Below are positions 6,847 through 26,808 of a stretch of 34,541 bases of DNA, one piece after another. Made by a program: the position numbers and the translations under genes. The stretch comes from a virus: the IMG/VR virus record IMGVR_UViG_3300046516_000428, positions 1 to 34,541 of that record. One strand, given 5' to 3'. Positions within the stretch are counted from its first letter, which is position 1. Each line of letters starts with the position of its first letter. Below the pieces are notes generated by a model, which did not search any database, had not been told where the DNA came from, and saw nothing but the letters and a program-made list of their open reading frames with translations.

Positions 6847-7468
6847 ACCAGCAACCAGAACTTGCCCGGGGTGCAAACAGATCAAAGAACTGTCCGAGTT
6901 TTACGGGCACAAGAGGCTCAGGCAGTGCAAAACATGCACCGCAAAGAAAGCGAGAGAGTGGCGCCACAATAACCCCGAGCGCGCCGCCGAGCTTAGCCGG
7001 TCCTCCTATCATCGAAACAAGCACAAATACCGCTCAGACCCGGCCTGGATCGAGTTGCAGCGTAAGCGCACGAGAGACTCCACCAGAAAGAGCAAGATGG
7101 GCCTTTCCTCTGAAGCCTATGATGCAATTCTGGCTCGGCAAGGCGGCGGGTGTGCCATCTGCGGCAGGAAGACCGCCCACAATGGGCGACAACTCTACGC
7201 CGATCACTGCCACGAAACCGGCGAGGTGCGCGGCATCCTTTGCGACAAATGCAACAGCGGCATTGCGTTCTTCGCCGATAACCCCGACCGCCTATTGGCC
7301 GCCGCCGACTATCTCCGAGCTAGTACGCCATCCCAGTCGCAAAGCCGTGCTCTTGGAGTGCCGGAATCTGCTTTCTCAGCCGAGAACCGGCGTCAACGCG
7401 CCAGTAAGGCGACGACGGGATCGACAGACGGTTCAGCACCCGCAGCGCTTGGTCGCGCGCATGGGTGA
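6839..7468 (+). CDS. Endonuclease-VII-type HNH protein with an antisense-derived tail
   Basis: 209 residues. An N-terminal zinc module (C9, C12, C30, C33: CPGCKQ ... QCKTC) precedes a basic linker and a recombination-endonuclease-VII-like HNH core from about residue 95: QGGGCAICGRK, LYADHCHETGEVRGILCDKCNSGIA (split below 20 residues: LYADHCHE, GEVRGILCDKCN), and NPDRLLAAADYLR. C105, C108, C135 and C138 would hold zinc, and D122-H123 carry the catalytic motif. Such proteins cut DNA as free-standing homing enzymes or at branched DNA. The core should end near residue 161; the last 49 residues lie opposite the 3' end of the ATP-grasp gene and look non-native. Compare the second copy at 30756-31373, which ends right after the same helix. 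Confidence 0.8.
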   Translation: MPEPATRTCPGCKQIKELSEFYGHKRLRQCKTCTAKKAREWRHNNPERAAELSRSSYHRNKHKYRSDPAWIELQRKRTRDSTRKSKMGLSSEAYDAILARQGGGCAICGRKTAHNGRQLYADHCHETGEVRGILCDKCNSGIAFFADNPDRLLAAADYLRASTPSQSQSRALGVPESAFSAENRRQRASKATTGSTDGSAPAALGRAHG

Positions 7469-13780: not shown

Positions 13781-13787
13781 CGCTACC

Positions 13788-15206
13788 TCACGACAACGCG
13801 AGCGCCGGCAGCGCCGACATCAGCCCGCCCCCGCCGCCAACGTCCGCCGCCCCCATGCCGACCGTGCTGCCGAGAGTATCGAAGCCGGGCATCGCCGCCG
13901 CCCCGGTCAGGCCGCTAGACAAACCCGACCCGCCGCCGAACAAGCCCCCTCCGCCGCTCAACATCCCGTTGTTCCCGAACAGGGTGTTGGCCCCCGAGAG
14001 CGCGCCGCCGAGGCCCCGCGCGGTCTGGTCGAAGCCCATCTGCCCGAGCTGACCCGAGATGCCGGAAGCGCTTTGTCCGAGACCCATATACTGCATCATG
14101 TCTTGCATCACCTGCTGCGGCAGGACGAACTGGTTGTTGCCGATTTGGGTTGCCCCGGTAAGCTGGTTTTGCAGGTTGCCGAGGCCGGTCAGCGCATTGC
14201 CGGCGATCCCGGCCCCGGTCTGGTACGGCAGCCCCGCGAACCCGGCCATCTGGTTGCCGATGTTGGAGGACAGCGCATCGGCCTGCCCAAGCCCCGAGCT
14301 TACGCCGCCGAGGAGCGAGGGGAAGGCCGAGGCCCCGAGCGCGCCGGCCTGATTTTGCGATTTTAGCGCGTTCAGCACGTTGCCGATCTGGCTCATGTAG
14401 GTACTCGACGGCAGCGCGGCAGAGCCCGACGAGAGCGCCGAGGCGCCGGTGAATTGCGGATCGGCCGCCTGCGCGCCCGCAGTCTGCCGCCCGAGCTGCT
14501 GGTTCTCCCAGTTGATGCCGAAATTGCCGAGGGCGTTAGCCGTGGTCGAGGCCCCGTAGGGCGAGCTGCCGAGCCCCGACATCGCGTTGGCCGCGGCCGA
14601 GGTATCGGTGATCCGCTGCTGCTGCTGGTTGCGCAGCGCCGATTGCGGGTCGAATGCAGACTGCATGATGCCGCTGCCGGCATTGTACATCTGCCCGGCG
14701 CCGCCCTGGCCGTAGGTCGCTCCCTGCTGCGCCCCCTGCATCGCCTGGTTGAAATACGGGTTGTTGGCGGTTTGGTTGACCGCCTGCCCGTACATCGGGT
14801 TGAAGGCGTTTTGCATCAGCGGGTCGAGGTAGTTCAGCCCCGACCCGGCCCCCGCCGCTAGCCCCGGAATCTCGCCGGCGAATTGCGGGTACATCGAGTT
14901 GAAGAAGTTGCCTGCCGCGCTGGCCCCGCCGAGCGCATTGCCCGACAGCGTGTCGAACGCCGTCGGTGCGCCGCCGCCGAGCGAGCCCGTCAGGAACTGG
15001 CTGACCGCGTTGTAGCCGCCGGGGTAGAGGCTCTGCGCCTGCGGGTAGGCCCACGCGCCCGGGGTGCCCGCGCCACCGTTCATCGACATGCCAGCGAGCG
15101 GCCCGATGATGTCGCCGAGCTGCCCCGCGACCGCGCCTTGGCCTGGCGGGCTAAATACATTCGCTGTGGAGCCGCCTCCGCTGCCGCTCGATCCCATTGG
15201 CCCCAT
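13788..15206 (-). CDS. Gly/Ala/Gln/Asn-rich internal virion protein (T7 gp14 position)
   Basis: 472 residues with strongly biased composition: Gly, Ala, Gln, Asn, Ser and Leu dominate, and there is no Cys. Phrases such as YGQAVNQTANNPYFNQAMQG and GNMLTG-like NALTGLGNLQNQLTG recur, and the end is glycine-rich with a hydrophobic character (GGGGLFGGGSGLSSGLTGA). Proteins of this kind are common among podovirus internal or DNA-ejection proteins that form a membrane channel. The start ATG 15206 has a GAGGTGAT ribosome-binding site. It follows the GNAT gene after 9 bases. Confidence 0.65.
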   Translation of the reverse strand: MGPMGSSGSGGGSTANVFSPPGQGAVAGQLGDIIGPLAGMSMNGGAGTPGAWAYPQAQSLYPGGYNAVSQFLTGSLGGGAPTAFDTLSGNALGGASAAGNFFNSMYPQFAGEIPGLAAGAGSGLNYLDPLMQNAFNPMYGQAVNQTANNPYFNQAMQGAQQGATYGQGGAGQMYNAGSGIMQSAFDPQSALRNQQQQRITDTSAAANAMSGLGSSPYGASTTANALGNFGINWENQQLGRQTAGAQAADPQFTGASALSSGSAALPSSTYMSQIGNVLNALKSQNQAGALGASAFPSLLGGVSSGLGQADALSSNIGNQMAGFAGLPYQTGAGIAGNALTGLGNLQNQLTGATQIGNNQFVLPQQVMQDMMQYMGLGQSASGISGQLGQMGFDQTARGLGGALSGANTLFGNNGMLSGGGGLFGGGSGLSSGLTGAAAMPGFDTLGSTVGMGAADVGGGGGLMSALPALALS

Positions 15207-15215
15207 CAGATCACC

Positions 15216-15680
15216 TCAGTCGAGCAGCTTCCAATATAGGGTCGCGCGGGGATGATAGCCCAAATGCAGCAGGAAGGGCAGCAACGAGCGCTGGCCGTCG
15301 TGCGCCATCACGTAGCGCACCCCGAGCGCGCGCAACCCGGCCTCCGCCGTCTTCCACATATGCAGCCCGATCCGACCCGGCGTGTCCCGGTAGGCCGGCG
15401 CCAGATAGTGCCCACCATCGAGCGCGGAGAGCGTGTCGGCGTAGTTGTGGTGCGGGCCAATGAAGAACGAGATGAAGCCGGCGAGCGTGCCGTCGACCCG
15501 CGCGGTCCACAGGCGATAGGCGCCCTCTGCCTCCATCCTCGCGAGACGGTCCCAATCGGGCTTTACCGGGATCACGTTGCGCAGAGGCGACAATTCCTCG
15601 ACGTAGGCCCGGATCAGGTCGGCGGCGTTCGGCTCGGCCAGGACGGTCGCCAGCTTTTCCCAGCCATACGCCGTCTTCAC
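15216..15680 (-). CDS. GNAT-fold protein, likely T7 gp13-like
   Basis: 154 residues from GTG 15680 (MKTAYGWEKLATVLAE), which starts one base after the preceding stop. Landmarks of the acetyltransferase (GNAT) fold: LWTARVDGTLAGFISFFIG, GGHYLAPAYRDTPGRIGLHM (the motif A strand-loop-helix), and LLPFLLHLGYHPRATLYWKL at the end, a typical final GNAT strand pair. The classical Q/R-x-x-G-x-G/A loop is degenerate (RDTPGRIG), so catalytic activity is uncertain. T7 gp13 and relatives are GNAT-like and lie just before gp14, gp15 and gp16; the same order is seen here. It may act as a virion assembly or modification factor. Confidence 0.75.
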   Translation of the reverse strand: MKTAYGWEKLATVLAEPNAADLIRAYVEELSPLRNVIPVKPDWDRLARMEAEGAYRLWTARVDGTLAGFISFFIGPHHNYADTLSALDGGHYLAPAYRDTPGRIGLHMWKTAEAGLRALGVRYVMAHDGQRSLLPFLLHLGYHPRATLYWKLLD

Positions 15681-15681
15681 A

Positions 15682-16113
15682 TCAGCCGGCCGGGGTAATG
15701 ACGACGGTCGGCGCCGAGGGGAGGGCCGCGCCAGCGGGGGCGGGCTCCGCCACCTCAACGACGTGCGTCCCGCTCGGCAGCGGCTGCACGTCGGCCACCT
15801 GCATCTTATCCGCCGGGGCCGGCACATTGATGACGCTCGCCCCGGCCGGCACGTCCTGCGGCGCGGGCACCGAGAGCGGCGCGGAGAGGCTCATCTTGCC
15901 GTCCTGGTGCGGCCACGCCCAATGCGCGAGGCCGGTGCCGATCATGCCGAGGACGATTACCAACTGCTGCTGCAAAGCGGGGTCGTTCAGCACCTTGACG
16001 CCGAAGCTGCTGGCGATGCTGGCGATCAGCGTCACCAGCGCCCCGAGAACCACGGGCGAGAGCAGCGGGTTCGTCGTGTAGGTGATCTGTGCGGGCGGCG
16101 GTTGATCGGGCAT
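15682..16113 (-). CDS. Holin-like membrane protein with Pro/Ala-rich tail
   Basis: 143 residues from ATG 16113, which overlaps the preceding TAA by one base. Two hydrophobic stretches, VVLGALVTLIASIASSFGV and QQQLVIVLGMIGTGLAHWAW, flank a short loop VLNDPALQ. This resembles small two-helix holins of alphaproteobacterial phages. An unusual tail of about 75 residues rich in Pro, Ala and Val (SVPAPQDVPAGASVINVPAP) follows. The gene sits next to the endolysin and the small membrane genes. Two other genes compete for the holin role, so this is a candidate only. Confidence 0.55.
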   Translation of the reverse strand: MPDQPPPAQITYTTNPLLSPVVLGALVTLIASIASSFGVKVLNDPALQQQLVIVLGMIGTGLAHWAWPHQDGKMSLSAPLSVPAPQDVPAGASVINVPAPADKMQVADVQPLPSGTHVVEVAEPAPAGAALPSAPTVVITPAG

Positions 16114-16265
16114 TAGAACCTTCCTCGGCCCAGGAGTAGGTAGATGACCAGTATCACCAGCAGGATGCCCCCGATTCCGAAGCCGCCGCCGTAGCCCCAT
16201 TGGCGATAGCCGTAGCCGCCGCCGAACAGCAGCAGCAGCACGATGACGATAAGGATGATGTCCAT
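16113..16265 (-). CDS. DUF3309-like small hydrophobic protein, 50 residues
   Basis: Starts MDIILIVIVLLLLFGGGYGY and ends with a second hydrophobic run IGGILLVILVIYLLLGRG; between them is a Gly/Tyr/Trp turn. The layout leucine-helix, GxxPxWxxxxGYG-like turn, leucine-helix is that of the DUF3309 proteins found in many Proteobacteria. Start and stop overlap both neighbours by one base (endolysin stop and holin-like start), so it belongs to the lysis cassette. A role in membrane permeabilisation is plausible but unproven. Confidence 0.6.
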   Translation of the reverse strand: MDIILIVIVLLLLFGGGYGYRQWGYGGGFGIGGILLVILVIYLLLGRGRF

Positions 16266-16819
16266 CAGGCCCCCGGCTTGGCGATCCACGCCTGGTTCAT
16301 CATCGCATAAACGTGCTGCAATGTCGTGCTGGCATGGTTGCCCGCGCTGTCACCGTCGTAATGCGACCTCCCGCCGTTCTCCGGGTCGGGCAACGAGGCC
16401 CACTCGCAGGACAGGAGATGCGCGAACCCGACGTGATCGAGCTTCCCGCGCCACCACAGCTTATAGCCGCGCCCGACCATCAGATCGACCGCGAACTCAT
16501 CCTGCACCGCCGGGGTGAACAGCGCTGTGTCGGGCATCCCGTGCTTGCCCTGGAGGCCCTTCAGCGTGCCGCGCAGGAACTGATAGCGGCCGATCGCCGT
16601 CGAGCGCGGGTCGTGGTTCAGCATCCCGGCCTGGAAGGCGTAAATCTCGGCGAGGTTCTTGGTGGACAGGTCAACAGCCGAGTGCGCGTGCCCGAAATAG
16701 GCGTTGTAATTGCCGTCGCTCTCGCCGACCGGGTTGCCGAGCTTGTCGCCCCACACGCCCCCGGCGATGAAGTCGAGGATGATGTCGGTGCAGTCGTCCT
16801 TGCCCGCATAGCTGCTCAT
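16265..16819 (-). CDS. Endolysin (lambda R-like muramidase/transglycosylase)
   Basis: 184 residues. Catalytic-region features: GNPVGESDGNYNAYFG (candidate catalytic Glu33), LAEIYAFQAGML, the hallmark STAIGRYQFLRGTLKGL at about 73-89, LFTPAVQDEFAVDLM and EWASLPDP, which parallels WASLPG in lambda R. This is the pattern of GH104-type lytic enzymes that cleave the peptidoglycan glycan backbone. There is no signal peptide or SAR helix, so it needs a holin for release. ATG 16819 overlaps the preceding stop as ATGA. It sits amid several small membrane genes, as expected for a lysis cassette. Confidence 0.85.
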   Translation of the reverse strand: MSSYAGKDDCTDIILDFIAGGVWGDKLGNPVGESDGNYNAYFGHAHSAVDLSTKNLAEIYAFQAGMLNHDPRSTAIGRYQFLRGTLKGLQGKHGMPDTALFTPAVQDEFAVDLMVGRGYKLWWRGKLDHVGFAHLLSCEWASLPDPENGGRSHYDGDSAGNHASTTLQHVYAMMNQAWIAKPGA

Positions 16820-17070
16820 GCTTCCCTGTCCCTCTTCTCCGCCGCCCTGCCGCGCGCCTCGCCCTCAAGCCCCGAGCTTTTCGCCGTCGCCGCGACCAGA
16901 GCATCCTTCATCGAGTTGGTCGCGATCTCGATCTTTCGGATGTCGTCGCGAGCCGTCAGAACCTGCCCCCGCAGCCGGCGCAACTCCGCGACGGCATACA
17001 CGCACGCGCCGAAGAACATCATCGCCTGGGTCGCGATAATGAGCCACGGCAGGACGGATGGCGAGGGCAT
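16816..17070 (-). CDS. Membrane-anchored coiled-coil protein of the lysis cassette (spanin- or DUF2730-like)
   Basis: 84 residues from ATG 17070, which overlaps the previous stop by one base. It has one N-terminal transmembrane helix (VLPWLIIATQAMMFFGACVY), then a charged coiled coil (ELRRLRGQVLTARDDIRKIE) and a basic tail. That topology fits an inner-membrane spanin subunit or the DUF2730 phage proteins. A longer frame upstream is antisense-like and is not used. No separate lipoprotein (outer spanin) gene with a lipobox was found nearby. Confidence 0.6.
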   Translation of the reverse strand: MPSPSVLPWLIIATQAMMFFGACVYAVAELRRLRGQVLTARDDIRKIEIATNSMKDALVAATAKSSGLEGEARGRAAEKRDREA

Positions 17071-17462
17071 CAACTGAACTTGAGATGAGACAGCATGAAC
17101 CCGATGACCGCGACCATCGCCGCGGTAGCGCCGACGATCAGGCAGAATTTCTGGATAAAGGCACCCATCCCCTGCCGCTGCGCCTGCTCGGTTATCAGCG
17201 CGGTCAGCTTGCCCTCGAAGCGCTCGACCGTCGCGTTGATCGTCGCCAGCCACTCCAGGCACTTCTGCTCGCTGATGCTGATCTTCGTGACCTCGTTGCT
17301 GATCGAGTGGATGTGGCTTCCGATACGGTTCAGATCGGCCTGGAGGCCCGTCACCTTCGTTTCGACCACGGCGATCCGTTCGCCGGCGGCGGTGGTTGTG
17401 CGGGACTGGCCTGCATCGCCTTGGGGCACCGCCCCGCCCTCCTCGTCCATGTTCGTCAGCAC
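17070..17462 (-). CDS. Tail-anchored coiled-coil protein, candidate XhlA-like holin
   Basis: 130 residues. Residues about 28-75 are a coiled coil (RIAVVETKVTGLQADLNRIG and EVTKISISEQKCLEWLATIN), followed by helix ALITEQAQRQGMGAF and a C-terminal membrane helix (FCLIVGATAAMVAVIGFML) ending in SHLKFS. The XhlA family of phage holin-associated proteins has the same plan. I chose GTG 17462 because GGGGAT lies a few bases upstream; ATG 17450 is the alternative. It opens the lysis cassette directly after the first fibre gene. Confidence 0.62.
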   Translation of the reverse strand: MLTNMDEEGGAVPQGDAGQSRTTTAAGERIAVVETKVTGLQADLNRIGSHIHSISNEVTKISISEQKCLEWLATINATVERFEGKLTALITEQAQRQGMGAFIQKFCLIVGATAAMVAVIGFMLSHLKFS

Positions 17463-17477
17463 TTATCCCCGCTGCCC

Positions 17478-18953
17478 TTAGGGCGAGAACGCGGCGCTGC
17501 ATTCCCACGCCGTCGTCGGCTGATTATACGCGCAAAACTTCTTGTTCGTGCTGTCCCACACAATTGCCGTGCGCCCCGCCGCCGCGCTCGCCGGCGCGCC
17601 CGTTGGCGGCCCTGTCATCGTCGGGATATAGAGGAATGGATCGGTGCTGTTCGTCGCAATAGCGGTCGGGGACGACGCTAAAACACCACCCGTTGGTGTC
17701 AATAACAACGGGGTGATAGCTGAGGAAAAATCCCCCGCGACCGCCGTGTTTACCTGCCAAGCAACGGTTCCGACATTACTTACTGTCTTCCGCCACAGGC
17801 CCCCGGCCGATATGGAAACCCCTGTATTGGTCAGCCTCTGCTGCGGCGCCGCATTCGAGATGTAGTTGTTGCCGATCCCGTCCACGATAAACCCGGGGCT
17901 ACTCCACGCAGTGCCGGAAAACGTGCTCGTGGAGAAATCAATACCTCCGGTGTAGGCCCCGAGGAACGCCTTGATTAGCGTCCCGCCGGTGTTGACGAGA
18001 TTGTGTCCTCCGACGGGGGAAAAGGCGATGCCTGTCTTGGTTCCGACCGAGGCTCCGGCCCGCGAAAACATTAGTCCGGTATCGTATGGTCCCAACGCCG
18101 ACACCGCGTCGTTATGGTTGGAGGTCAGAGCAAGAATCCACTTGATGTAGGGTTGCGAACCCGCCTCCGCTGTCATGCTAAATTCAGCAGATCCCATCAG
18201 CATCCCGGTCGAGCCAGAGGCCACGCTCGATTGCGCCCCCAGGCCCTTCACGCTGCCCTTCCACCTGTAGACCAGATTCCCGGCGCCTGCTGCCGACCCC
18301 ACTCCAGTCGACAAGGTGATGACGTTGCCTACCGGAGCCCCGGAAACTGTATTCGTGCTAACCGTTCCTAGGTCGGTCACTATTTGCAGGTTTTTACCGT
18401 CCACAAATCCGGTGGAATCAACGACGGTAATCGTCATGTCGCCTGGGTTTGCGGGCGCCGCCAGGGTCGTGTCAACGCCTCCCTCGCCACCGGCCGCCGT
18501 CGCCCTGCCGGTTCCGAACATTCCGACGTAGCTCGGGCTCGCTTCGTCAATGTCGGAAACTGTGGATCTTATGTCCTGAAGCGCCGCGAAAATGCCTCCG
18601 TACATCCCATTTATGCCGGAAAGTGGCACGCCGTTGGTCTGGTGCAGCACGTAGAACGCCTTTAGGTCGGTCTGCACCGGGGCGGCCGTCACCAGAGTAA
18701 AAAGCACGTCGTCGGTAGCCGCACCCGGGGGCGCGAGGATGCCGATCCTCATCTTCGCCCAGGGGAAGGTCGGGTTTGCCGCGTTCCCCAAAAGGAAATT
18801 GTCGTTGATGTCGTGCCGCAGCGCGTTCTCGCGGGCGATGAACTGAGAGGGGTCCTGCGGCGCGATGATGTCGCGCAGCATGTGCGGCGGGTCTGCCCGC
18901 GCCTGCGTCGCCAGCATCAGCAGAACCACTACCGCTCGCAATAAGAAGTGCAT
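17478..18953 (-). CDS. Tail-fibre-like protein with signal peptide
   Basis: About 491 residues. The N-terminus MHFLLRAVVVLLMLATQARA is a textbook Sec signal peptide with ARA as cleavage site. The mature protein begins DPPHMLRDIIAPQDPSQF, followed by ENALRHDINDNFLLGN. A beta-rich centre contains DMTITVVDSTGFVDGKNLQI...NVITLSTGVGSAAGAG, a linker domain common in phage fibres, and later repeats of glycine-rich strands. The end has the only two cysteines, FCAYNQPTTAWEC. Start: ATG 18953, or GTG 18956 overlapping the previous stop. Patches between about 17640 and 17800 are AT-richer than the rest. Probably a virion adhesin; the export signal is unusual for one. Confidence 0.72.
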   Translation of the reverse strand: MHFLLRAVVVLLMLATQARADPPHMLRDIIAPQDPSQFIARENALRHDINDNFLLGNAANPTFPWAKMRIGILAPPGAATDDVLFTLVTAAPVQTDLKAFYVLHQTNGVPLSGINGMYGGIFAALQDIRSTVSDIDEASPSYVGMFGTGRATAAGGEGGVDTTLAAPANPGDMTITVVDSTGFVDGKNLQIVTDLGTVSTNTVSGAPVGNVITLSTGVGSAAGAGNLVYRWKGSVKGLGAQSSVASGSTGMLMGSAEFSMTAEAGSQPYIKWILALTSNHNDAVSALGPYDTGLMFSRAGASVGTKTGIAFSPVGGHNLVNTGGTLIKAFLGAYTGGIDFSTSTFSGTAWSSPGFIVDGIGNNYISNAAPQQRLTNTGVSISAGGLWRKTVSNVGTVAWQVNTAVAGDFSSAITPLLLTPTGGVLASSPTAIATNSTDPFLYIPTMTGPPTGAPASAAAGRTAIVWDSTNKKFCAYNQPTTAWECSAAFSP

Positions 18954-19204
18954 CACTTGGGTGTCTCGGCTGCCTTCAGCTTCACCTCGGCGGCGTCAGC
19001 CCGGGCCTTTTCCTTACGGTACGCCTCGACCAAAGCGGAAAGCGCTTCCGCGACGTTCTGCTGCCCGGTCTGCGCCGCCTGCCATTGCCGCGAAAGATTC
19101 GCCTCCACCGGATCGGCCTTCGGGGCGTCCTGCCCCGACGCGGTGCCAGCCATCAGCAGGACAGGGACGATCGCCCAGTGTGCGCCGCTCAAAACCCCCA
19201 CCAC
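18953..19204 (-). CDS. Small secreted coiled-coil protein
   Basis: About 83 residues. A hydrophobic N-terminal segment (HWAIVPVLLMAGTASGQ) ends with a plausible signal-peptidase site ASG|Q. The mature part is a single charged helix (LSRQWQAAQTGQQNVAEALS, then YRKEKARADAAEVKLK) without cysteine. The start is uncertain: GTG 19204 or 19201, or TTG 19192, which overlaps the previous stop as TTGA and has GGGGG just upstream. It lies inside the block of signal-peptide-bearing fibre genes, so it may be a periplasmic assembly factor or chaperone for them. No family recognised. Confidence 0.58.
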   Translation of the reverse strand: MVGVLSGAHWAIVPVLLMAGTASGQDAPKADPVEANLSRQWQAAQTGQQNVAEALSALVEAYRKEKARADAAEVKLKAAETPK

Positions 19205-20055
19205 GCCCTCTGACCGCTGGTGATGTAGGAGCGCTGCGCTGCCGTCGATGCCACCGCATCGAGGAAAAACGCCTCCAGAAAATCGCAGGTCGTCGACGCT
19301 GCCCCGACCAACTGAACGACCCCGGCCACGGTGCTGCCGGTGATGGTCCCGGTCCCCTCCACACCGTCCAGGCTAAAAACCGACGAGGCTCCGTTTATAA
19401 CCGCCACCCCGGAATGCCAGGCGTTGTCATTCGCGACCGCGCCGATGATGCCAGAGTTGCTAAGTGCCGACCATTGGTTGGCAATCGCACCGGCAGATCT
19501 TATCCGGTTCCCCGTCCCGGCATTCGACTTGATGAAATCACACTGTCCGGTGCCGGTCACGCGGTTGGCGACCACCGCCAGCGAGATAACCCCCGTCGTC
19601 GGGGTGAAGGTGGCCGCCGTGTTGAGCACCTGCGCGGCGGTCGTTTGCAGGCATGGCGATGTGCCGAGGCAGTTGAACACCAGCGCGGGCCGGTTCGCGT
19701 CCGTCGCCTGCGTGACGTTGGACGTGTTCCCGCTCTGGTCGTACATCGTGACGACCTTGCAGGTGGTGGCGTTGCAGAAAGTCGTCGCCGTCGCGGTGTC
19801 AAGCGCGCCGGTCGAGGTGAACCCGATATCCGTCACCGTGCTGTCGCTGGCGCGGACGATGTTGATGAGCTTGTTGGTCGAATAGCTGGTCAGGAGGCGA
19901 CGCAGCGAGTAGGCCCGCGTCACCGTGCCCAGGCCGTCAAGGGGGTAGCTTGTCGCGGCCGTTCCGGCGAAGCGCGATATTTCTTGCGCGCCCGCATCAA
20001 GCGGCAGCAAGAGCAGCGCCAGCAGGGCTGCGCGGAAGATCACCCGACGATCCAT
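19189..20055 (-). CDS. Adhesin-like protein with arabinofuranosidase-B/lectin-type domain and signal peptide
   Basis: 288 residues. Signal peptide RAALLALLLLPLDAGAQ with cleavage after AGA. The mature protein carries AYSLRRLLTSYS, IVRASDSTVTDIGFTSTGAL and VVTMYDQSGNTSNVTQATDA, the phrases of the AbfB-like/concanavalin-type domain that many phage receptor-binding proteins share; then a lectin-like sandwich with AVANDNAWHSGVAVINGASS and FSLDGVEGTG. There are six cysteines in close pairs (FCNATTC, NCLGTSPC, plus two single ones). Start ATG 20055; GTG 20043 overlapping the previous stop is possible. Likely binds surface polysaccharide. Confidence 0.72.
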   Translation of the reverse strand: MDRRVIFRAALLALLLLPLDAGAQEISRFAGTAATSYPLDGLGTVTRAYSLRRLLTSYSTNKLINIVRASDSTVTDIGFTSTGALDTATATTFCNATTCKVVTMYDQSGNTSNVTQATDANRPALVFNCLGTSPCLQTTAAQVLNTAATFTPTTGVISLAVVANRVTGTGQCDFIKSNAGTGNRIRSAGAIANQWSALSNSGIIGAVANDNAWHSGVAVINGASSVFSLDGVEGTGTITGSTVAGVVQLVGAASTTCDFLEAFFLDAVASTAAQRSYITSGQRAWWGF

Positions 20056-20306
20056 ACCGTGCCGTTGCAGATTACCGGAGCGACAGCCGCGCCGCCCGCT
20101 GCGATCGTTGCCAGCGCCACCGGCACGAGTGCGTCAGTCACGATATACATCGCGCCCCGCGACCCGGCGTTGCAGACCGGCAGCGCGCCTACCGTCGTGC
20201 TGGGGCGCACCGGGGAGGCGGCGTTGGAGCTGACGCCCATGCTCTGCGCGTGGGCCAGCAGCGGGAGGCAAATGGCCGCCGCCAGGGCCAACCGGCCAAT
20301 CATCAC
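20040..20306 (-). CDS. Small secreted fibre-tip-like protein, 88 residues
   Basis: Signal peptide RLALAAAICLPLLAHAQ, cleavage after AHA. The mature part ends LPVCNAGSRGAMYIVTDA and then APVICNGTVWIVG. The LP.CN.G..G....VTDA ... V.CdGt.W motif is a small domain often found at the end of phage tail fibres. The two cysteines of the mature protein belong to that motif and could form one disulfide. The start overlaps the upstream stop as ATGA. Probably a detached fibre tip or accessory adhesin. Confidence 0.65.
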   Translation of the reverse strand: MMIGRLALAAAICLPLLAHAQSMGVSSNAASPVRPSTTVGALPVCNAGSRGAMYIVTDALVPVALATIAAGGAAVAPVICNGTVWIVG

Positions 20307-21046
20307 GTCGTCCTCGCCTTGAAGAAGGCCGTCGCCGAGACCGTTTTGTTGAAACAGCCCGTCGTTGAGAAAACCGCCGTCGCCCCCGTCGAGTATCGGT
20401 CAGGCGGACCCGAGCCAAACGACAAAGCGACGGTGGAGTTGGCCGCCACCTGCACGCACTCGACAGGCGTCACCGCCCCATCAGCAGGCGCTGACGTGGC
20501 GTTGAAGGTCATCAGGAAGCCCGCCGATGCCCCGGCGGTGACGTAGATGCTCCACAGATTGCAGGCGGCGGCGCAGAAGACGTGGCTGCCCTCGGCCGAG
20601 GCCGAAACCACAGGGACGATACCGGCGGCGGATGCCGTCGTGGGGTTGATGTTGACGCCGTTTGTCGTCACCGGCGTCGTCTGGTCGATCCCGAACTTGC
20701 CCGCGATCGCCGACCCAGCGCCGAGCGCGAATGTCGCCCCGGTTCCGGGCGCGATGAAGACCGGGTTGCCAACCGCATTGAGCGCGCCGCCGATCGCCAG
20801 CGTGACCGGCCACGCATTGCCAACCACGGCAGGGGTGCCCTGGTTCGCCGTGGTCGTGCCGCTGACCGTGCCGTTGACCTGCACAGTGCCATCCGGGCCG
20901 ACCCGGATGCCAACAAGCTGCCCGTTCGTAACGGTTGGCGGAACAGTATGGTACTGGCCGCCGACGAGATTCGGCGTCAGGTCTTGCGCCGGCGCCGCCC
21001 CACAGACGACCAGGGCGGCTAGCAGGAACGGGAGGAGGCGACTCAT
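20303..21046 (-). CDS. Secreted beta-rich virion or accessory protein
   Basis: 247 residues with signal peptide RLLPFLLAALVVCGAAPAQ (site APA|Q). The mature protein has a short N-terminal part (TVPPTVTNGQLVGIRVGPDG), a Gly/Thr/Ala-rich middle, and a C-terminal beta sandwich: HVFCAAACNLWSIYVTAGAS, LMTFNATSAPADG, CVQVAANSTVALSFG, and CFNKTVSATAFFKARTT. Such a domain is common in phage and proteobacterial cell-surface proteins. There are four cysteines in the mature part. The start overlaps a tiny basic frame as ATGA. Confidence 0.66.
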   Translation of the reverse strand: MSRLLPFLLAALVVCGAAPAQDLTPNLVGGQYHTVPPTVTNGQLVGIRVGPDGTVQVNGTVSGTTTANQGTPAVVGNAWPVTLAIGGALNAVGNPVFIAPGTGATFALGAGSAIAGKFGIDQTTPVTTNGVNINPTTASAAGIVPVVSASAEGSHVFCAAACNLWSIYVTAGASAGFLMTFNATSAPADGAVTPVECVQVAANSTVALSFGSGPPDRYSTGATAVFSTTGCFNKTVSATAFFKARTT

Positions 21047-21126
21047 TTCTTGCCCTTCCGCTTGGCCGGTTTCTTCTTGACCGGAGGCCGCCCGACGGCC
21101 CCGGCCAAGCCGCCCGACGTGTTCAT
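21043..21126 (-). CDS. Tiny Lys-rich peptide, 27 residues
   Basis: MNTSGGLAGAVGRPP followed by a basic tail with VKKKPAKRKGKK. It fills the 85-base gap between two fibre genes exactly: the start is 4 bases after the upstream stop with AGGG just ahead, and the stop overlaps the next start as ATGA. The tail resembles nucleic-acid-binding or membrane-interacting peptides. It is the only gene of the block without a signal peptide. It may only serve to couple translation. Confidence 0.42.
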   Translation of the reverse strand: MNTSGGLAGAVGRPPVKKKPAKRKGKK

Positions 21127-21130
21127 GGCC

Positions 21131-22393
21131 CTACAGATCGGCCGAGAAGGTAAGGATCGAGCCGCCAGCCGCGCCCGTCAGGGTGCAGGTCTGCCCGGCG
21201 GTCAGGGTCGCCCCGGTGGTCGCTGTCAGGTTCGCCAGGCGCGTCGTGTTTCCGCCGGTCGTGACCGCCAGGAAGGGCGTCGAGAGCACCGTGTTGGTGA
21301 CGACGTGCGTCACAGTCCATGTCGTATTCGCCAACGCTGTCCCGGCCGCGGCAAAGGTCGGCGCGGCCCGCATCTCGACCGGGTGCGGGATCGAGAGGAT
21401 GCAGGTGGTGGTGCTGGCGCCCTGGCCCGCGGGACTGACCGAGATCGAGGCCGCCGGCTCCGTGATCTGGTAATAGTAGCGCTGCGCCTCCTCCAATTCG
21501 AACGAGCCGGCGAGGAATTGGTAATTGCTCGGCGCGACCTGATTGGGGCCGAGGGCCTCAAGCTGCGCACCCACGAAGGCGAAGCCATCGGTAGCGCCCG
21601 ATCCCGTTGCGGCCGGCGTGAAGCAGAGCGAGATTGATCCTTCTTGCATGTCGTTCGGCATCAGCACCGGCGCCGAGTAGATGCGGCTCCACGCCGCGGT
21701 GGTGCCGAGATCCCATGAGGGGCTGCCGGCCCCGGCGGTCAGGGTGTTGGTCACAAGGCCGGTGAAGGCCGGGGTCACGGCTGGGGCGGCGGTCAGGGTG
21801 GCCATGCCCTCGTCAGCCGAGGTGCCGGTCGCCAGCACCGCGAACACCGTGCCGTTGACCGCGGAAAGTCCCGCGAGCGGCTGGACGTAGGCCGAGAACA
21901 TCACCCGCTGGCCGCGCATCGCGACGGCGCGGCCTGACGAGATCGCCTGCATCGCGCATTGCGCCTGGGTCGTGACGCCGGCCGATCGCCAAATTTTCAT
22001 CGTCCGCAAAAAGCCCTTCGGCGGCGAGGGAGTTGCGGTGATGACCTGCCCGTGGTTGTTGCCGGCCGCGATGTTGCTGTCGGCGCACCAACGATCGGCA
22101 ACGTAGTTGGTGACACCGCAGCCGCCGATGGCGACGCCGCCGGTCGTATCCGCCGTGCCGCGCTGGCTGATGTTCATTGCCCCGTTGGCGAGGAAGTTGC
22201 CACTGAGGGCGCCACCCACCGGGTCGCCGATGCCAACCGTGTTCTGGTTGATCGACTGAATGATCCCGTTCAGCGTGTTAATCATGTTGCCGGGGTCGAG
22301 CGGCCCCCGGATCGTCGGCACCGAAGCGGCGCCAGCGACGACGCTGCCGAGCGCGAGGCCCACCGCGAGAGAGATCGAGATAACCCGCTTCAT
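21131..22393 (-). CDS. Receptor-binding tail fibre with signal peptide
   Basis: 420 residues. Signal peptide RVISISLAVGLALGSVVAGA. Then PLDPGNMINTLNGIIQSINQ, a helix-like trimerisation segment, and NGAMNISQRGT, the start of a carbohydrate-binding domain common in phage fibres. Near the end VGAQLEALG...PSNYQFLAGSFELEEAQRYY is the classical fibre phrase (QLE-G......e.R....EL..CQRYY, here without the Cys). The final 90 residues form a beta domain with two of six cysteines. The ribosome-binding site AGGAGG, 6-7 bases from ATG 22393, is one of the strongest in the window, suggesting high expression. Confidence 0.75.
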   Translation of the reverse strand: MKRVISISLAVGLALGSVVAGAASVPTIRGPLDPGNMINTLNGIIQSINQNTVGIGDPVGGALSGNFLANGAMNISQRGTADTTGGVAIGGCGVTNYVADRWCADSNIAAGNNHGQVITATPSPPKGFLRTMKIWRSAGVTTQAQCAMQAISSGRAVAMRGQRVMFSAYVQPLAGLSAVNGTVFAVLATGTSADEGMATLTAAPAVTPAFTGLVTNTLTAGAGSPSWDLGTTAAWSRIYSAPVLMPNDMQEGSISLCFTPAATGSGATDGFAFVGAQLEALGPNQVAPSNYQFLAGSFELEEAQRYYYQITEPAASISVSPAGQGASTTTCILSIPHPVEMRAAPTFAAAGTALANTTWTVTHVVTNTVLSTPFLAVTTGGNTTRLANLTATTGATLTAGQTCTLTGAAGGSILTFSADL

Positions 22394-22542
22394 ATTAAGC
22401 CTCCTGCCGAGTGCCGCTCATATACCGGATTGCGCCCGGAATAACCATTGGATACGCTAGACCCGCGAGTAGGTGTCGGGGGACGCCCTCTCGCTTGAGC
22501 GTTGGGGAAGAGAGGGGCCGGTCTTCGGATCGGCCCTTTCCT
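22394..22542. other. 149-base gap with a stable UUCG-loop hairpin and a strong ribosome-binding site
   Basis: No gene seen. A hairpin with arms 22515-22523 and 22528-22536 around a TTCG loop lies just beyond the stop of the 91-residue gene. Read on the plus strand it has one G-U pair, a C(UUCG)G tetraloop and is followed by TTTCCTTT, a fair terminator that would stop antisense transcription. Read on the minus strand (the direction of the operon) the same stem has one A-C mismatch and no T-run. A TATATG at about 22419-22424 (minus strand) could be a -10 box for the fibre gene, but no good -35 is seen. Confidence 0.45.
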
Positions 22543-22818
22543 TTAGTACGTCACGGTCTTGACCGTCGTGAGCCATGCCGAGAACGCCTGTTGCCGCAAG
22601 GTACGCGCCGCCGCAATCGCCGTGGCGCCGGCAGCAAAGGTTGCCGCCCGCGCCTGCGGGGTGCCGCATGCCGCCGCTATCGCCGCCGCGTGGGTGTTGT
22701 CGAAGCCGGCATAGAAGTTCGCCTGCCAACAGACATCGTTGAGTTGCGTCGCCGGGGTCAGTTGCCCGGCGTGGGCCGGCAATGCCACCAGCATCAGGAC
22801 GAGCGCCAGGGCCTTCAT
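22543..22818 (-). CDS. Small secreted protein, 91 residues
   Basis: Signal peptide MKALALVLMLVALPAHAG (site AHA|G). The mature part, QLTPATQLNDVCWQANFYAG, then THAAAIAAACGTPQARAATF and an alanine-rich helical end, contains two cysteines about 23 residues apart. ATG 22818 overlaps the stop of the spike gene (TAATG). It may be a helper or a small secreted partner of the spike. No family recognised. Confidence 0.6.
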   Translation of the reverse strand: MKALALVLMLVALPAHAGQLTPATQLNDVCWQANFYAGFDNTHAAAIAAACGTPQARAATFAAGATAIAAARTLRQQAFSAWLTTVKTVTY

Positions 22819-24296
22819 TAGTATGTCCCGGTGTTGCATACGCCCTGGATCTCGTAAGTCAGGCCAGCGCCCAGATTGACCCCGCCATTGTCCCACTGGA
22901 GAAAGAAGCCGTTGGCCGTCTCGAACCCGCTGCCCCAGAACGTGGACGGCGGATTGCCGGCAACGATCGGCTCCCATTGCCCGGTGCCGTTGGCGCGGGT
23001 CCACGAGCAAAGACCGTTGAGCAGGTAGGCGGTCTTGCGGCCGAGATAGACGAAGCCGGTATTGCCGATCCCGGCCCCAGCGGGAGAAAGCTGGATCGCG
23101 ATCCCATAGGCGCTGCTACGGCTCGACACGCCGACCGTCCCCGATGCCCCCAGGTTGTTCGCCGTCAAGACCTGCGGGCACCCGGCCGAGCCACCGATGC
23201 AGGGAATACTGTCAACCGCCTGGTAGCGGCTGCCGTCGGCGATGATCCCCTGCGTCCCCGGCCATACGGTCGGCGGGGTCGCCACGTTCATGACCGAGTT
23301 GCCGCCGAGGTAGAAATGCGCCCCGGTCATCGGCGCGCCGCCGCCCGAGTTGTCGTCCACCGCCGGATTGCCCGACAATTTTATCAGGCTGCCCGTCTCG
23401 GCCAGGAACAGAAAGCCGCCGGTGAACGTGGGCGAGTTTTTGATCCCGACAGTCGAGTCCGCGGCGAACCACGAGTTAGCGCCGACGTTGACGCCATACA
23501 CGCCAGCGTTGCCGCCGAGGACCAGGGCCTGCGCCCCCGACCCCGCCGACACGTAAAGCCCACCCTGCTCCTCCATCGCGATCAGATTGCCGGTCGCGTC
23601 GAGCAATTCCACGTCGGCGTCGATGTACATGATCGCGCCGCTCTGGACGAAAAGATCGCTCTGCGTACAGGCGCCGCCGCCGACATCGGCCTTGACCGCG
23701 AGGTTGCGCAGCGACACCTGGGCCATGTTGGTCGCCAGGATCGTGTAGCAGAAGGAGTTGCCCGAGATCAGCGGGACGCCCCGAATGATCGTGGCATTCG
23801 GGCCGACCTGGAGGGGCGATCCCTGGCCGCTCAAGACAAGCTGCGGCATCGAGACATTGGTGATGAACGGCGGGTTGCCGACCGTGCCGACGCTGTAGCC
23901 GGCGAAAGAGATATTCTCGTTGAAGGTGCCGGTGCCGATGTTGATGACGACATTGCCCTGCTTCGCGTCGGTCGCGAGGGCAACCGCCAGCGCGTGGTTG
24001 ATCGTCAGGCACGGCCCATCGGCCCCCGTCACCGTCGCGGCGGCGCAGTTGTTGCTGTCGCTGCCGGCGGTCGAGACGTAGTAGTTGATGTCGGTGAAAA
24101 GCCGGGTCGAGGGCGGAACCGCGGCGTTGATGCAGTTGCGCAACGCGGTCCAGTTCGCATTCGCCTGGGTCGGGTCGATCGTCGTGCCGGGGCTGAAAAC
24201 GAACGGGATGACCGGGCAGGTCGCCTCCGCCTGCCGAGCGCCCATCAGTAGGCAAAGCAGCCCGAAGAAGGCGGCGAGAACCGCATTACGGCGCAT
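22818..24296 (-). CDS. Beta-helix tail-spike-like protein with signal peptide
   Basis: 492 residues. Signal peptide AVLAAFFGLLCLLMGARQAEA. The mature part starts with an ANANWTALRNCINAAVP helix and NYYVSTAGSDSNNCAAATVT, leading to GPCLTINHALAVAL, the entry phrase of right-handed beta-helix (pectin-lyase-like) spikes. Successive strand-rich turns follow (NVVINIGTGTFNENISFAGY, QLVLSGQGSPLQVG, ATIIRGVPLISG). The end is a separate beta domain (YLLNGLCSWTRANGTGQWEP). It has ten cysteines after the signal peptide, unusual for a spike folded in the cytoplasm. The helix may bind or cleave host polysaccharide; no catalytic residues can be assigned. Confidence 0.77.
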   Translation of the reverse strand: MRRNAVLAAFFGLLCLLMGARQAEATCPVIPFVFSPGTTIDPTQANANWTALRNCINAAVPPSTRLFTDINYYVSTAGSDSNNCAAATVTGADGPCLTINHALAVALATDAKQGNVVINIGTGTFNENISFAGYSVGTVGNPPFITNVSMPQLVLSGQGSPLQVGPNATIIRGVPLISGNSFCYTILATNMAQVSLRNLAVKADVGGGACTQSDLFVQSGAIMYIDADVELLDATGNLIAMEEQGGLYVSAGSGAQALVLGGNAGVYGVNVGANSWFAADSTVGIKNSPTFTGGFLFLAETGSLIKLSGNPAVDDNSGGGAPMTGAHFYLGGNSVMNVATPPTVWPGTQGIIADGSRYQAVDSIPCIGGSAGCPQVLTANNLGASGTVGVSSRSSAYGIAIQLSPAGAGIGNTGFVYLGRKTAYLLNGLCSWTRANGTGQWEPIVAGNPPSTFWGSGFETANGFFLQWDNGGVNLGAGLTYEIQGVCNTGTY

Positions 24297-26808
24297 TGGG
24301 CAGCCCCTGCATCATGTAGCCAAGGATCTGATAGCGGAAATAAAGGTTGCCGATAACCATGCTGGCGCTCGAATTTCCCCGGATGTTGAAGATGCCCTGC
24401 TTGAACACCAGCGGCTGCGACCACGGCAGTTGCCGCTGCATGTACGCGCCCGAGGCCGGGCCGACGACGGTATAGCCCCAGATCCCGGTGCCCCACAGCG
24501 CCTGCGGCACATTCCACCCCGCCAGGGTCACGCCGTCGAGGTTCTGCCGCACCTCGTTCAGGAAATCGACCTGCACGCTCTCGGAGGGCGGCAAGGCAAT
24601 CGCCAGCGCGCTCTCGATGACGGCGTTCTCGGCCATGCCGCCGGTATCGGGCAAGAGGCAGGTTTCAAATTCCCAATCGAGCTGCACCCCGGCCTCGGTG
24701 TAGACGGAGGTCGGCAGCTGCGTGTCGTCGGAGCGCGCCAGGACCGCGGGCCGGCCCGTTGGGGCTAACACAAAGGTGTTGCTCCAGTTCTGGATCTGGC
24801 TCGCCGTCGAGGTGTGCGGGCCGGTCCAGATGCCGCGCGTCGTGTCGTACCAGTATTCCGCGAAGCCGCCGGTCACGGGCACGGTGATGCGGATATTGCG
24901 CCCGTTGGCGGCGGCGCACATGCGGGAAGCCGGCAGCGGGCCGATGATCGGCGGGTTGGTCACGAGCAGGAACGGCCCGACCACGCCCGAGCCGTCCTGG
25001 CCGATCGGGTCCGATACCTGCGCCTGGAAATTGATGATGCGCAGGCCCTCGGGGCTGACGAAATAGAGGCCCTTGGTGCTGGAGCAGATCGTCAGCGGCG
25101 CGTGCGTGCCCGTGGCGACCGGCATCGAGTTCATCGAGAGGTTGCCGGTGGTCGGGTCGCCGGTGATCTGCTGCATCCCGCCGTCGCCCTGGAACACCAC
25201 CAGCGCCTGCACGATGCCGCCGACCAGCGAGGTCAGCTGGAGTTCGCCGATCGCGGTACAGGGCAATCCGTTGCCGGGGATCAGTGCCTGCACCGCCGTT
25301 GTGTTGCTGACGATGCACGGCAGGAGCGCGTCGGAGAACACGATCCCGTCGTCACCGAGCGCGTACCACGCCCGCCCGTTCATCTGCCCGACCCCGACCG
25401 GGTTGGACGGCAGCGAGTTCGGCGAGGTATCGCCGGCGCCCCAGAGCGGGCTCGTCGCGGTGCCGCCGGCGATGGTGATCGGCGCGCCGTTGACCGAGGC
25501 GGTCAGGGCCGGGGTCACGGTGATCTGCGCGCCGGTGAAGGTCAGCTGCGAGTAGCCGGCCAGGAACGGCGGGTTCGACAGCGTTATCAAGGTCGGCGGC
25601 GTGCCGGCGCCCTTGGAGAGCAGCTTGGTCCCGGGCAGGATGCCGACCCCCGACACATCCATGCCTACCGAAAGGCCTCCCGGGTCCACGTAGGCAAGCG
25701 CGATATTGGTGCCGAGCGACAGGAACACCGTGACCACGGCGGTCGTGGTAAAGGCCGAGACGACTGACGTGTTCGGCGCGATGCCGGGGCCGGTCGATGT
25801 CACGCTCATCCCGGGCTGCACCCCGACGATCGACGGATTGCCGGATATGACGAACAGATCGGCGAAGGTGAAGGTCACCCCGTCGGCGCTCGCGGTCACG
25901 TTGTTCGACAACTTGACCTGCCGGCCGAGCGCCGCCAGCGGCTCGCCGACGATGCCGCCGCCGGTCGCCGGGACCGAGAGGGTGGCCGAGAAGGCGCCGC
26001 GGTTGATCGCGGTGATCGTCGTGTTGGCCGGGATGTCGCTGCCCTGCACCACCTGCCCGATATAGATGCCGGTCGTGTCGGGCACGCCGTTGATCGCCAT
26101 ATTGACGATGCCGGTCGTGCCGTTGGTATCGGCCGAGAAGGCAACGCTGACATCCTCCACCGCGTCGATGAAGGTGTTGGCCGGGATGCCCGCGCCGGTC
26201 ACGGTGAAACCGATGTCGGCCGACCCCGGCAATGTCCCTGGGGCGAGGCCGACGATGTACGGCTGGTGCGTCGTATCGGTGTCGCCGATAAAGGTGCGCT
26301 GCTCGTCGAGGTTGCCGGTGGTGTCGAGCGTGAAGCCCGAGACATCGAACCAGCCGAACTTGACCGCGCCGCCCGGGAAGCCGGGGTGAGTGACGATGAC
26401 CCGAGACCCGACCTTCTTCAGGATCGGCGGCACCCAATCGCCCGTCGTCGCCGGACTGACCGGCGTGTTTGCCAGCGTCGCCCCGGTGACGGGTTCGAAC
26501 ATGCCGGTGGTCAGATCGAGGGCGAACGGCTCATCGTGGCCGGGGAAGTGCGTGCTGGCGATCATGCCATACTCGATATTCCCCACGACCTTCGTCCCCG
26601 AGATGAAGCCGGGGGCGATGAAGCCGGGAAAATCGGTGATGTCGGTGTAGGCCGGGCGGCAGACCCAAGTGCCGAGCGTGCGCGGGTTGGGGATCATATT
26701 GACCAGCCGCGCCATCGCTCCGCGCTGCGCGTTGGTGCCGTCGACCGCATCGCTCAGTGTGCGTCCGACAAAGCTCATCGGCTGGCTATTGCGGAGCGAG
26801 GAGGCCAC
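24286..26808 (-). CDS. P22 gp10-like tail nozzle (packaged-DNA stabilisation) protein with inserted repeats
   Basis: 840 residues, GTG start directly after the stop of the adaptor gene. The N-terminus (SFVGRTLSDAVDGTNAQRGA, then ARLVNMIPN and TLGTWVCRPAYTDI) and later MNGRAWYALGDDGIVFSDAL, PEGLRIINFQAQVSDPIGQ and MCAAANGRNIRITVPV match the general plan of P22 gp10-type beta-propeller nozzle proteins. Between about residues 185 and 430 is an insertion with at least four copies of a G.gIpaNT.I repeat (near 200-213, 250-265, 333-349 and 382-396). Together with the gp4-like protein it would close the portal and connect it to the spike. Confidence 0.72.
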   Translation of the reverse strand: MASSLRNSQPMSFVGRTLSDAVDGTNAQRGAMARLVNMIPNPRTLGTWVCRPAYTDITDFPGFIAPGFISGTKVVGNIEYGMIASTHFPGHDEPFALDLTTGMFEPVTGATLANTPVSPATTGDWVPPILKKVGSRVIVTHPGFPGGAVKFGWFDVSGFTLDTTGNLDEQRTFIGDTDTTHQPYIVGLAPGTLPGSADIGFTVTGAGIPANTFIDAVEDVSVAFSADTNGTTGIVNMAINGVPDTTGIYIGQVVQGSDIPANTTITAINRGAFSATLSVPATGGGIVGEPLAALGRQVKLSNNVTASADGVTFTFADLFVISGNPSIVGVQPGMSVTSTGPGIAPNTSVVSAFTTTAVVTVFLSLGTNIALAYVDPGGLSVGMDVSGVGILPGTKLLSKGAGTPPTLITLSNPPFLAGYSQLTFTGAQITVTPALTASVNGAPITIAGGTATSPLWGAGDTSPNSLPSNPVGVGQMNGRAWYALGDDGIVFSDALLPCIVSNTTAVQALIPGNGLPCTAIGELQLTSLVGGIVQALVVFQGDGGMQQITGDPTTGNLSMNSMPVATGTHAPLTICSSTKGLYFVSPEGLRIINFQAQVSDPIGQDGSGVVGPFLLVTNPPIIGPLPASRMCAAANGRNIRITVPVTGGFAEYWYDTTRGIWTGPHTSTASQIQNWSNTFVLAPTGRPAVLARSDDTQLPTSVYTEAGVQLDWEFETCLLPDTGGMAENAVIESALAIALPPSESVQVDFLNEVRQNLDGVTLAGWNVPQALWGTGIWGYTVVGPASGAYMQRQLPWSQPLVFKQGIFNIRGNSSASMVIGNLYFRYQILGYMMQGLPNAP

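Follow-up and report, generated by a model that had tools for sequence, protein, structure and literature searches.

Tail-fibre and spike proteins with predicted Sec export signals and paired cysteines in an uncultured lineage of tailed phages

A widespread but uncultured lineage of tailed phages encodes tail-fibre and spike proteins that carry predicted cleavable Sec signal peptides (SPs) and, with them, paired cysteines, so that these proteins are probably finished outside the cytoplasm and would have to join the virus particle only when the cell bursts, which is not how tailed phages are known to be built. The starting point was a 34,541-nt viral sequence (IMG/VR record IMGVR_UViG_3300046516_000428, hereafter the window), in which a preliminary description had pointed to a run of eight tail/adhesin genes whose products each begin with a Sec signal peptide and, after cleavage, hold an even number of cysteines. 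We found that observation to be correct. All eight open reading frames exist, on the minus strand, although the gene starting at 17478 ends at 18956 rather than 18953, and 22543–22818 begins at the inner ATG at 22818. The block and its neighbours are as follows.

24286–26808, minus strand: 840-aa tail-hub protein (P22 gp10/tip-attachment-like by gene order only), no SP, the marker gene for the lineage
22818–24296, minus strand: 492-aa predicted exported fibre; SP at 24222–24296 (MRRNAVLAAFFGLLCLLMGARQAEA, followed by TCPV), then the fibre N-domain CPVIPFVFSPGTTIDPTQANANWTALRNCIN with its Cys pair; 10 mature Cys; its start overlaps the hub gene stop
22543–22818, minus strand: 91-aa predicted exported protein of no assigned function, SP at 22768–22818, 2 mature Cys
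21131–22393, minus strand: 420-aa predicted exported fibre-like protein, SP at 22328–22393, 6 mature Cys; a 419-aa relative in the related locus L005 is also SP-bearing with 6 Cys
20303–21046, minus strand: 247-aa predicted exported protein, SP at 20987–21046, 4 mature Cys
20040–20306, minus strand: 88-aa predicted exported protein, SP at 20247–20306 (AHA followed by QSMG), 2 mature Cys
19189–20055, minus strand: 288-aa predicted exported lectin-like protein (Pfam ArabFuran-catal, concanavalin-type fold), SP at 19987–20055, 6 Cys
18953–19204, minus strand: 83-aa predicted exported coiled-coil protein, SP at 19133–19204, no Cys, weak Rz-spanin PHROG match
17478–18956, minus strand: 492-aa predicted exported fibre-like protein, SP at 18894–18956, 2 mature Cys; a 944-aa protein in L005 (12444–15278) with a similar mature N-terminus is SP-bearing with 8 Cys
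16265–17462, minus strand: the three genes next downstream, which close the block (holin-like, 17070–17462; small membrane protein, in 16816–17073; 184-aa endolysin-like, 16265–16819), no SP; functions suggested by size, position and hydrophobic segments only

To score signal peptides, we built a scorer on 26 E. coli signal peptides. The eight proteins scored 15.2–23.6, the 26 known signal peptides 18–31, and the other 28 window proteins at most 11.8 (12.2 for one holin-like gene with a different start). The cleavage sites given in the preliminary description hold: ARA, ASG, AGA, AHA, APA, AGA and AHA for the first seven in coordinate order, while for the 492-aa protein at 22818–24296 cleavage between AEA and TCPV agrees with its relatives (TCPV/ACPP). 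The n-, h- and c-regions and the AxA site of Sec/signal peptidase I substrates are present. The mature cysteine counts of 2, 0, 6, 2, 4, 6, 2 and 10 are exact, and the 472-, 422- and 1213-aa internal proteins indeed have none. Within this window alone the parity is weak evidence, since seven non-zero counts would all be even with a chance of 1/128, and other SP-less virion proteins do contain cysteines (six in the 840-aa protein, two in the capsid protein). One correction is needed: three of the eight (83–91 aa) are not shown to be adhesins, and the 83-aa protein looks like a periplasmic coiled coil. No lipobox was seen in the window proteins, which rules against reading them as lipoproteins.

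We next asked whether the pattern extends beyond this one sequence. The lineage comprises at least 202 contigs in public viromes. In 80 related viral contigs, none from an isolate, 163 of 523 genes downstream of the tail-hub gene carry an SP, against 3 of 638 upstream of it or the hub gene itself (Fisher p = 5e-59). At the false-positive rate of 3 of 638 in the conserved upstream virion genes of the lineage, eight in a row is not chance. Of 42 informative non-redundant loci, 38 have at least one SP-bearing protein, an undercount because some starts were called too far inside. Among non-redundant SP-bearing proteins with cysteines, 75 of 79 have an even mature count (p = 3e-18; 67 of 70 at <25% identity), versus 51 of 107 for SP-less neighbours and 25 of 76 for core virion proteins; lineage-wide, the parity becomes decisive. 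Counting cysteines in the precursor spoils the parity (58 of 81), so the SP is evidently removed. Alanine occupies position −1 in 81 of 90 cases, which is partly imposed by the scorer, and Q or A occupies position +1 in 70 of 90. A circular genome with 24% capsid identity shows the same pattern. Two related loci, L086 and L087, hint at soil or freshwater alpha- or betaproteobacteria as hosts, and L086 encodes an SP-less homologue at 13316–14035.

A fibre N-domain directly after the hub exists in both forms. SP-bearing copies have a cysteine pair in 26 of 33 cases and SP-less copies in 0 of 14 (p = 3e-7), so that seven of the 33 non-redundant SP-bearing N-domains lack the pair. The mature N-terminus starts where the SP-less protein starts, with 3–7 aa from the mature N-terminus to the motif in most of both forms. 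Within 150 nt of the hub gene we found 69 SP-bearing and 19 SP-less copies, and on the hub tree there are at least eight gains or losses of the SP on supported branches. A strictly phylogeny-independent pair test points in the same direction (4.2 vs. 0.5) but is not significant (median p = 0.22). Related phages with the same protein but without a signal-like N-terminus had been set beforehand as a condition that would refute the idea. Such copies do occur, at 21 of 79 loci on the hub tree, but they also lack the Cys pair, and they therefore strengthen the export reading instead of refuting it.

The SP-bearing proteins of the lineage match known adhesin families. The N-domain profile hits solved tail fibres (8vbx, 2.7e-8; 7z47, 2e-7), and SP-bearing proteins hit tail-fibre and tail-collar PHROGs (523, 1858 and 8469), Collar (PF07484), the S74 chaperone (PF13884), the Mtd second domain (PF21916) and pectate lyase. 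For the window itself, the evidence is the N-domain of 22818–24296 and a virion-protein PHROG hit for 19189–20055; the other window proteins have no significant family hit. In a 44-kb record of the lineage, every gene over 85 aa between the hub and the lysis region is SP-bearing apart from one membrane protein, and we recognised no SP-less fibre candidate there. The hub gave no PHROG, Pfam or PDB profile hit, so its identification as P22 gp10 is not supported by profile search and rests on gene order alone. Searches by tblastn and megablast of 50,697 phage records with the hub, the 420-aa protein or the block gave no match, and a search for related loci with the 492-aa fibre alone found none. 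An AlphaFold model of the 492-aa mature fibre made without an alignment was uninformative (pLDDT 34).

In our preferred explanation, the block is the adhesin (fibre/spike) module of a podovirus-type tailed phage lineage. The genes are probably expressed late, translationally coupled behind the tail-hub gene, and their products would be exported by Sec, cleaved by signal peptidase I and disulfide-bonded in the periplasm. Virions would assemble in the cytoplasm up to the hub and meet the finished fibres, spikes and spike bases only when lysis mixes the compartments; the fibres would then bind, as P22 tailspikes do when they add last. The sequence statistics establish the presence of the SPs and the pairing of the cysteines. 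Export, cleavage and disulfide formation are inferred from them, and we regard export and disulfides as nearly certain; membership in the virion, host binding and the timing of assembly are further inferences, which we consider only somewhat more likely than not, in the absence of an isolate or virion proteomics. The interpretation in the preliminary description is thus partly supported: it had proposed export to the periplasm, where disulfides form, for which the independent evolutionary evidence is strong, followed either by joining of virions at or after lysis or by action as secreted factors, and between these two the present data do not decide.

The main rival is that the exported proteins never join virions but are secreted or surface-displayed factors that block re-adsorption or superinfection, hydrolyse or mask surface glycans, or coat the lysed cell, with some of the small ones being lysis helpers in the periplasm. 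Export itself speaks for this view. Some blocks hold O-antigen-ligase-like, glycosyltransferase and Tat-type glycan-enzyme-like genes, which fits a surface-modification role; there are small coiled-coil SP proteins with a weak spanin match and lipobox proteins in the distant relative; and some phages of the lineage keep an SP-less fibre beside SP-bearing proteins, so the latter may be accessory there. Dilution after lysis is also a problem for post-lysis assembly. We nevertheless consider this rival unlikely, though it remains a real possibility, given the fibre, collar, S74, Mtd and spike-base homology. In addition, the N-domain copies next to the hub occupy the same place with or without an SP, so the two forms look interchangeable; translational coupling behind a structural gene suggests late expression, unlike typical exclusion genes; and the 44-kb record would have no recognisable fibre left.

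A less radical reading offered in the preliminary description, that the hydrophobic N-termini are uncleaved attachment helices, here taken as membrane or virion anchors on proteins that fold in the cytoplasm, is disfavoured and very unlikely. The RcGTA head fibre protein does bind its base through a short hydrophobic N-terminus (PMC7296036), and our scorer cannot prove cleavage. However, uncleaved anchors would not predict a parity that appears only after the SP is removed, nor the A-x-A sites followed by Q, nor the agreement of the mature N-terminus with the start of SP-less homologues, and even cysteine counts would not be expected for cytoplasmic proteins. It is also conceivable that alanine/leucine-rich N-termini mimic signal peptides in GC-rich DNA (65% GC) or that gene starts were misplaced, as the scorer is our own and gave one false positive among 14 cultured tail proteins and 4 of 62 in one conserved small virion family. 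This possibility is remote and already contradicted by the parity test, as the cysteine parity is a trait that the scorer does not use, only 3 of 638 genes upstream of or in the hub gene of the same genomes are positive, and SPs were found with an ATG and in frame upstream where starts had been miscalled.

Tailed phage assembly is taught as wholly cytoplasmic. If our reading is right, which we judge slightly more probable than not, a whole lineage of tailed phages has an extracytoplasmic branch of virion assembly, in which receptor-binding proteins are Sec-exported, processed and disulfide-bonded in the periplasm and added to cytoplasmically built particles during or after lysis. Signal peptides and cysteine pairs would be gained and lost together, so that fibres switch between the cytoplasmic and the exported route in evolution. 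This would explain how disulfide-stabilised fibres can be made by a tailed phage, and would change how receptor-binding proteins are found and expressed (the mature part, in an oxidising compartment). The lineage also offers a clean evolutionary experiment, the same fibre domain with and without export, with cysteine pairs that follow the signal. Literature searches found SAR endolysins, spanins and Lom but no report of signal peptides on tail fibres, although these searches covered few subscription papers and a precedent may exist.

How do these proteins compare with known systems? They share domain content, a place behind the tail-hub gene and strong variability between relatives with the fibres, tailspikes and collar proteins of tailed phages, but known ones have no signal peptide and are folded in the cytoplasm, which is usual of the family though not strictly defining; of the 14 cultured tail proteins checked, 13 score below 11, and the one at 15.8 is the false positive, in a collar domain. 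The filamentous phage adhesin pIII is likewise Sec-exported, folded in the periplasm, disulfide-bonded and receptor-binding. However, filamentous phages assemble in the membrane without lysis, whereas here the 44–48 kb relatives have capsid, hub and large internal virion proteins, and these other virion genes are those of a tailed phage and carry no SP. Lambda Lom (PMC12309495), like other exported phage products of the exclusion or conversion type, is an SP-bearing product encoded among tail genes, but it is a single outer-membrane barrel, while here there are up to eight or more fibre-like proteins per genome with even Cys. The head spike of RcGTA, formed by the Rcc01079 base and the Rcc01080 fibre, lies on the virion surface and binds polysaccharide (PMC7296036). 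One protein of a related locus (L035, 16882–17199) matches the spike-base model (NF048002) above its curated cutoff, at 39 vs. 28 bits, while no window protein matched; this relative has an SP and 2 Cys, and the paper mentions no signal peptide.

The ArabFuran domain of 19189–20055, with its concanavalin-type fold, is shared with GH54 arabinofuranosidase and with SP-less homologues in Gordonia, Microbacterium and Aphanizomenon phages. The six cysteines of the window protein are shared with its SP-bearing relatives, but the homologues of cultured phages have neither an SP nor Cys at the aligned places, where the window protein has FCNATTC and further Cys. Toxin entries returned by a fold search with this protein only reflect the common concanavalin-type lectin fold.

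The window, a virus record of 34,541 bases, has 65% GC. On the minus strand it runs from the end of a portal-like gene through a scaffold-like gene, the presumed capsid gene (449 aa), several small genes, a 386-aa gene and a gene for an 840-aa tail-hub-like protein, followed by the eight genes examined here, a lysis-type region, and genes for internal virion proteins of 472, 422 and 1213 aa, the last with a phage tail lysozyme domain. Several of these assignments (portal, scaffold, hub and lysis genes) rest on gene order, size and comparison with relatives rather than on significant family hits. Two further minus-strand genes lie near the internal virion genes:
7320-8642 (-), an ATP-grasp (GARS-like) gene of 440 aa after the internal virion proteins, with similar genes of 440-447 aa in the same place in the related records G001, G004 and G005, which is odd for a neighbor of a virion module
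15216-15683 (-), a GNAT acetyltransferase-like protein of 155 aa between the lysis and internal virion genes, conserved in 28 loci

The preliminary description had reported that eight consecutive tail/adhesin proteins each carry a Sec signal peptide (SP) and an even number of cysteines, and this observation holds. Using an in-house SP scorer built from 26 E. coli signal peptides, the eight proteins scored 15.2 to 23.6, compared with 18 to 31 for the known signal peptides and at most 11.8 for the 28 other proteins of the window (one holin-like protein reached 12.2 with another start). Of 14 tail proteins from cultured phages, 13 scored low and one collar protein was a false positive. After cleavage the eight proteins contain 2, 0, 6, 2, 4, 6, 2 and 10 cysteines. 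The genes overlap or abut (24296/24286, 22818/22818, 20306/20303, 20055/20040, 19204/19189 and 18956/18953), so they look translationally coupled behind the hub gene. However, three of them encode only 83-91 aa and should not be called adhesins, as the preliminary description had done.

Our next question was whether the trait extends to related viruses. A search with the hub protein returned 15 relatives directly and at least 202 with a profile, of which 80 were kept. None is an isolate, and nothing in 50,697 phage records matched the hub. Two contigs sit in metagenome bins of Acetobacteraceae and a Burkholderiales bacterium, a weak hint at the host. In these fragmentary metagenomic contigs, with genes called by an in-house procedure, 163 of 523 complete genes downstream of the hub carry an SP, while in or upstream of the hub only 3 of 638 do. 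Conserved virion families have essentially none (hub 0/81, the next families 0/78 and 0/72, capsid 0/53), with one 102-aa family at 4/62. Thirty-eight of 42 informative non-redundant loci have at least one SP-bearing protein. Some apparently SP-less genes were start errors with an SP just upstream, so the true fraction is higher.

Cysteine parity provides an independent test, since mature cysteines should pair if the proteins are exported and oxidized. Among SP-bearing proteins made non-redundant at 40% identity, 75 of 79 with cysteines have an even number (2 to 16; p=3e-18), and at 25% identity the figure is 67 of 70. In contrast, SP-less neighbors are even in 51 of 107 cases and core virion proteins in 25 of 76. 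Counting the precursor with its SP gives only 58 of 81, so the parity belongs to the cleaved form. As the scorer does not count cysteine parity, this result also validates the SP calls.

The first gene behind the hub often begins with a fibre domain of the form [C]xxxPYTLTNGTxADATQVMANFNxIxx[C]xN, which offers a natural experiment. In a set widened to 122 copies and made non-redundant at 70%, SP-bearing copies have both cysteines in 26 of 33 cases and SP-less copies in 0 of 14 (p=3e-7). The predicted mature N-terminus lies 3-7 residues before the motif in most copies, where the SP-less proteins have their methionine. Within the set, 69 SP-bearing and 19 SP-less copies lie within 150 nt of the hub gene. 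In one related locus (L059, 8500-9750), the tail-hub ORF runs in frame, without a stop, into a signal peptide and fibre N-domain, either a real fusion or a lost stop codon. On a tree of the hub, the trait changes at least 8 times on supported branches. In independent pairs the cysteine pair follows the SP in 4.2 pairs on average and goes against it in 0.5, but these are too few for significance, a limit that should be kept in mind. A second domain shows the same pattern: the ArabFuran-like protein at 19189-20055 has six cysteines shared by its SP-bearing relatives, while three SP-less homologues in cultured phages have none at those places.

When scanned as a set of 89, the SP-bearing proteins matched tail collar, tail fibre, tailspike, Peptidase S74 chaperone, Mtd second domain, pectate lyase and, in the related locus L035, the spike base protein of the Rhodobacter gene transfer agent, above its curated cutoff. 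The N-domain profile matched the solved tail fibres 8vbx and 7z47, mostly through the repeat NGANSDITSLSGLTTPLSxxQGGTG that follows the helix. The 288-aa window protein (the ArabFuran-like protein) was modeled as a concanavalin-type sandwich closest to GH54, with a mean pLDDT of 62. Most window proteins themselves have no significant family match, and their assignment rests on the N-domain, the ArabFuran match and synteny. A conserved SP protein of ~105 aa, usually without cysteine, is found at L006 (14680-15006) and in 19 further loci. Its mature N-terminus (APITGPVDP...) resembles that of the 420-aa window protein (ASVPTIRGPLDPGN), and it is possibly an adaptor. In the 44-kb record G001, all genes over 85 aa between the hub and the lysis region are SP-bearing except for one encoding a polytopic membrane protein, and we saw no SP-less fibre candidate, although only part of the remaining proteins of that record was scanned against family libraries.

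In the most likely scenario, late genes would make fibres with signal peptides, Sec would export them, signal peptidase would cleave them, and disulfides would form, presumably by the host's DsbA system. At lysis, the fibres would meet the particles built in the cytoplasm and bind. P22 tailspikes, for comparison, can be added last. The interpretation in the preliminary description, that these proteins are exported to the periplasm, form disulfides there, and either join virions at or after lysis or act as secreted factors, is partly supported: export and cysteine pairing are supported by statistics on sequence alone, from which cleavage and disulfide formation are also inferred, while virion incorporation and its timing remain inference. 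The main alternative is that the proteins are secreted or surface-acting factors. This alternative gains some support from possible surface-conversion genes in or beside the SP block of G001, where locus L171 encodes an O-antigen-ligase-like membrane protein (9038-10144; weak Wzy_C match) and a group 1 glycosyltransferase (16325-17467). It also gains some from the last gene of an SP block in the related record G002 (L180, 6081-7265, minus strand), which encodes a 395-aa protein with a twin-arginine type signal (MDRALITRRALVGGAAVASLIRPRPVVA|Q) and weak matches to the glycan-enzyme families WbsX/DUF5010.

To ask how wide the trait is, we looked at further genomes. The isolated Stenotrophomonas phage StenR_269, with a similar gene order, has no such proteins. 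A circular genome of a distant uncultured phage with only 24% capsid identity (MW202637; locus L182) has SP and lipobox proteins in the same region (21407-38818), again with even cysteine counts once the lipid cysteine is removed.
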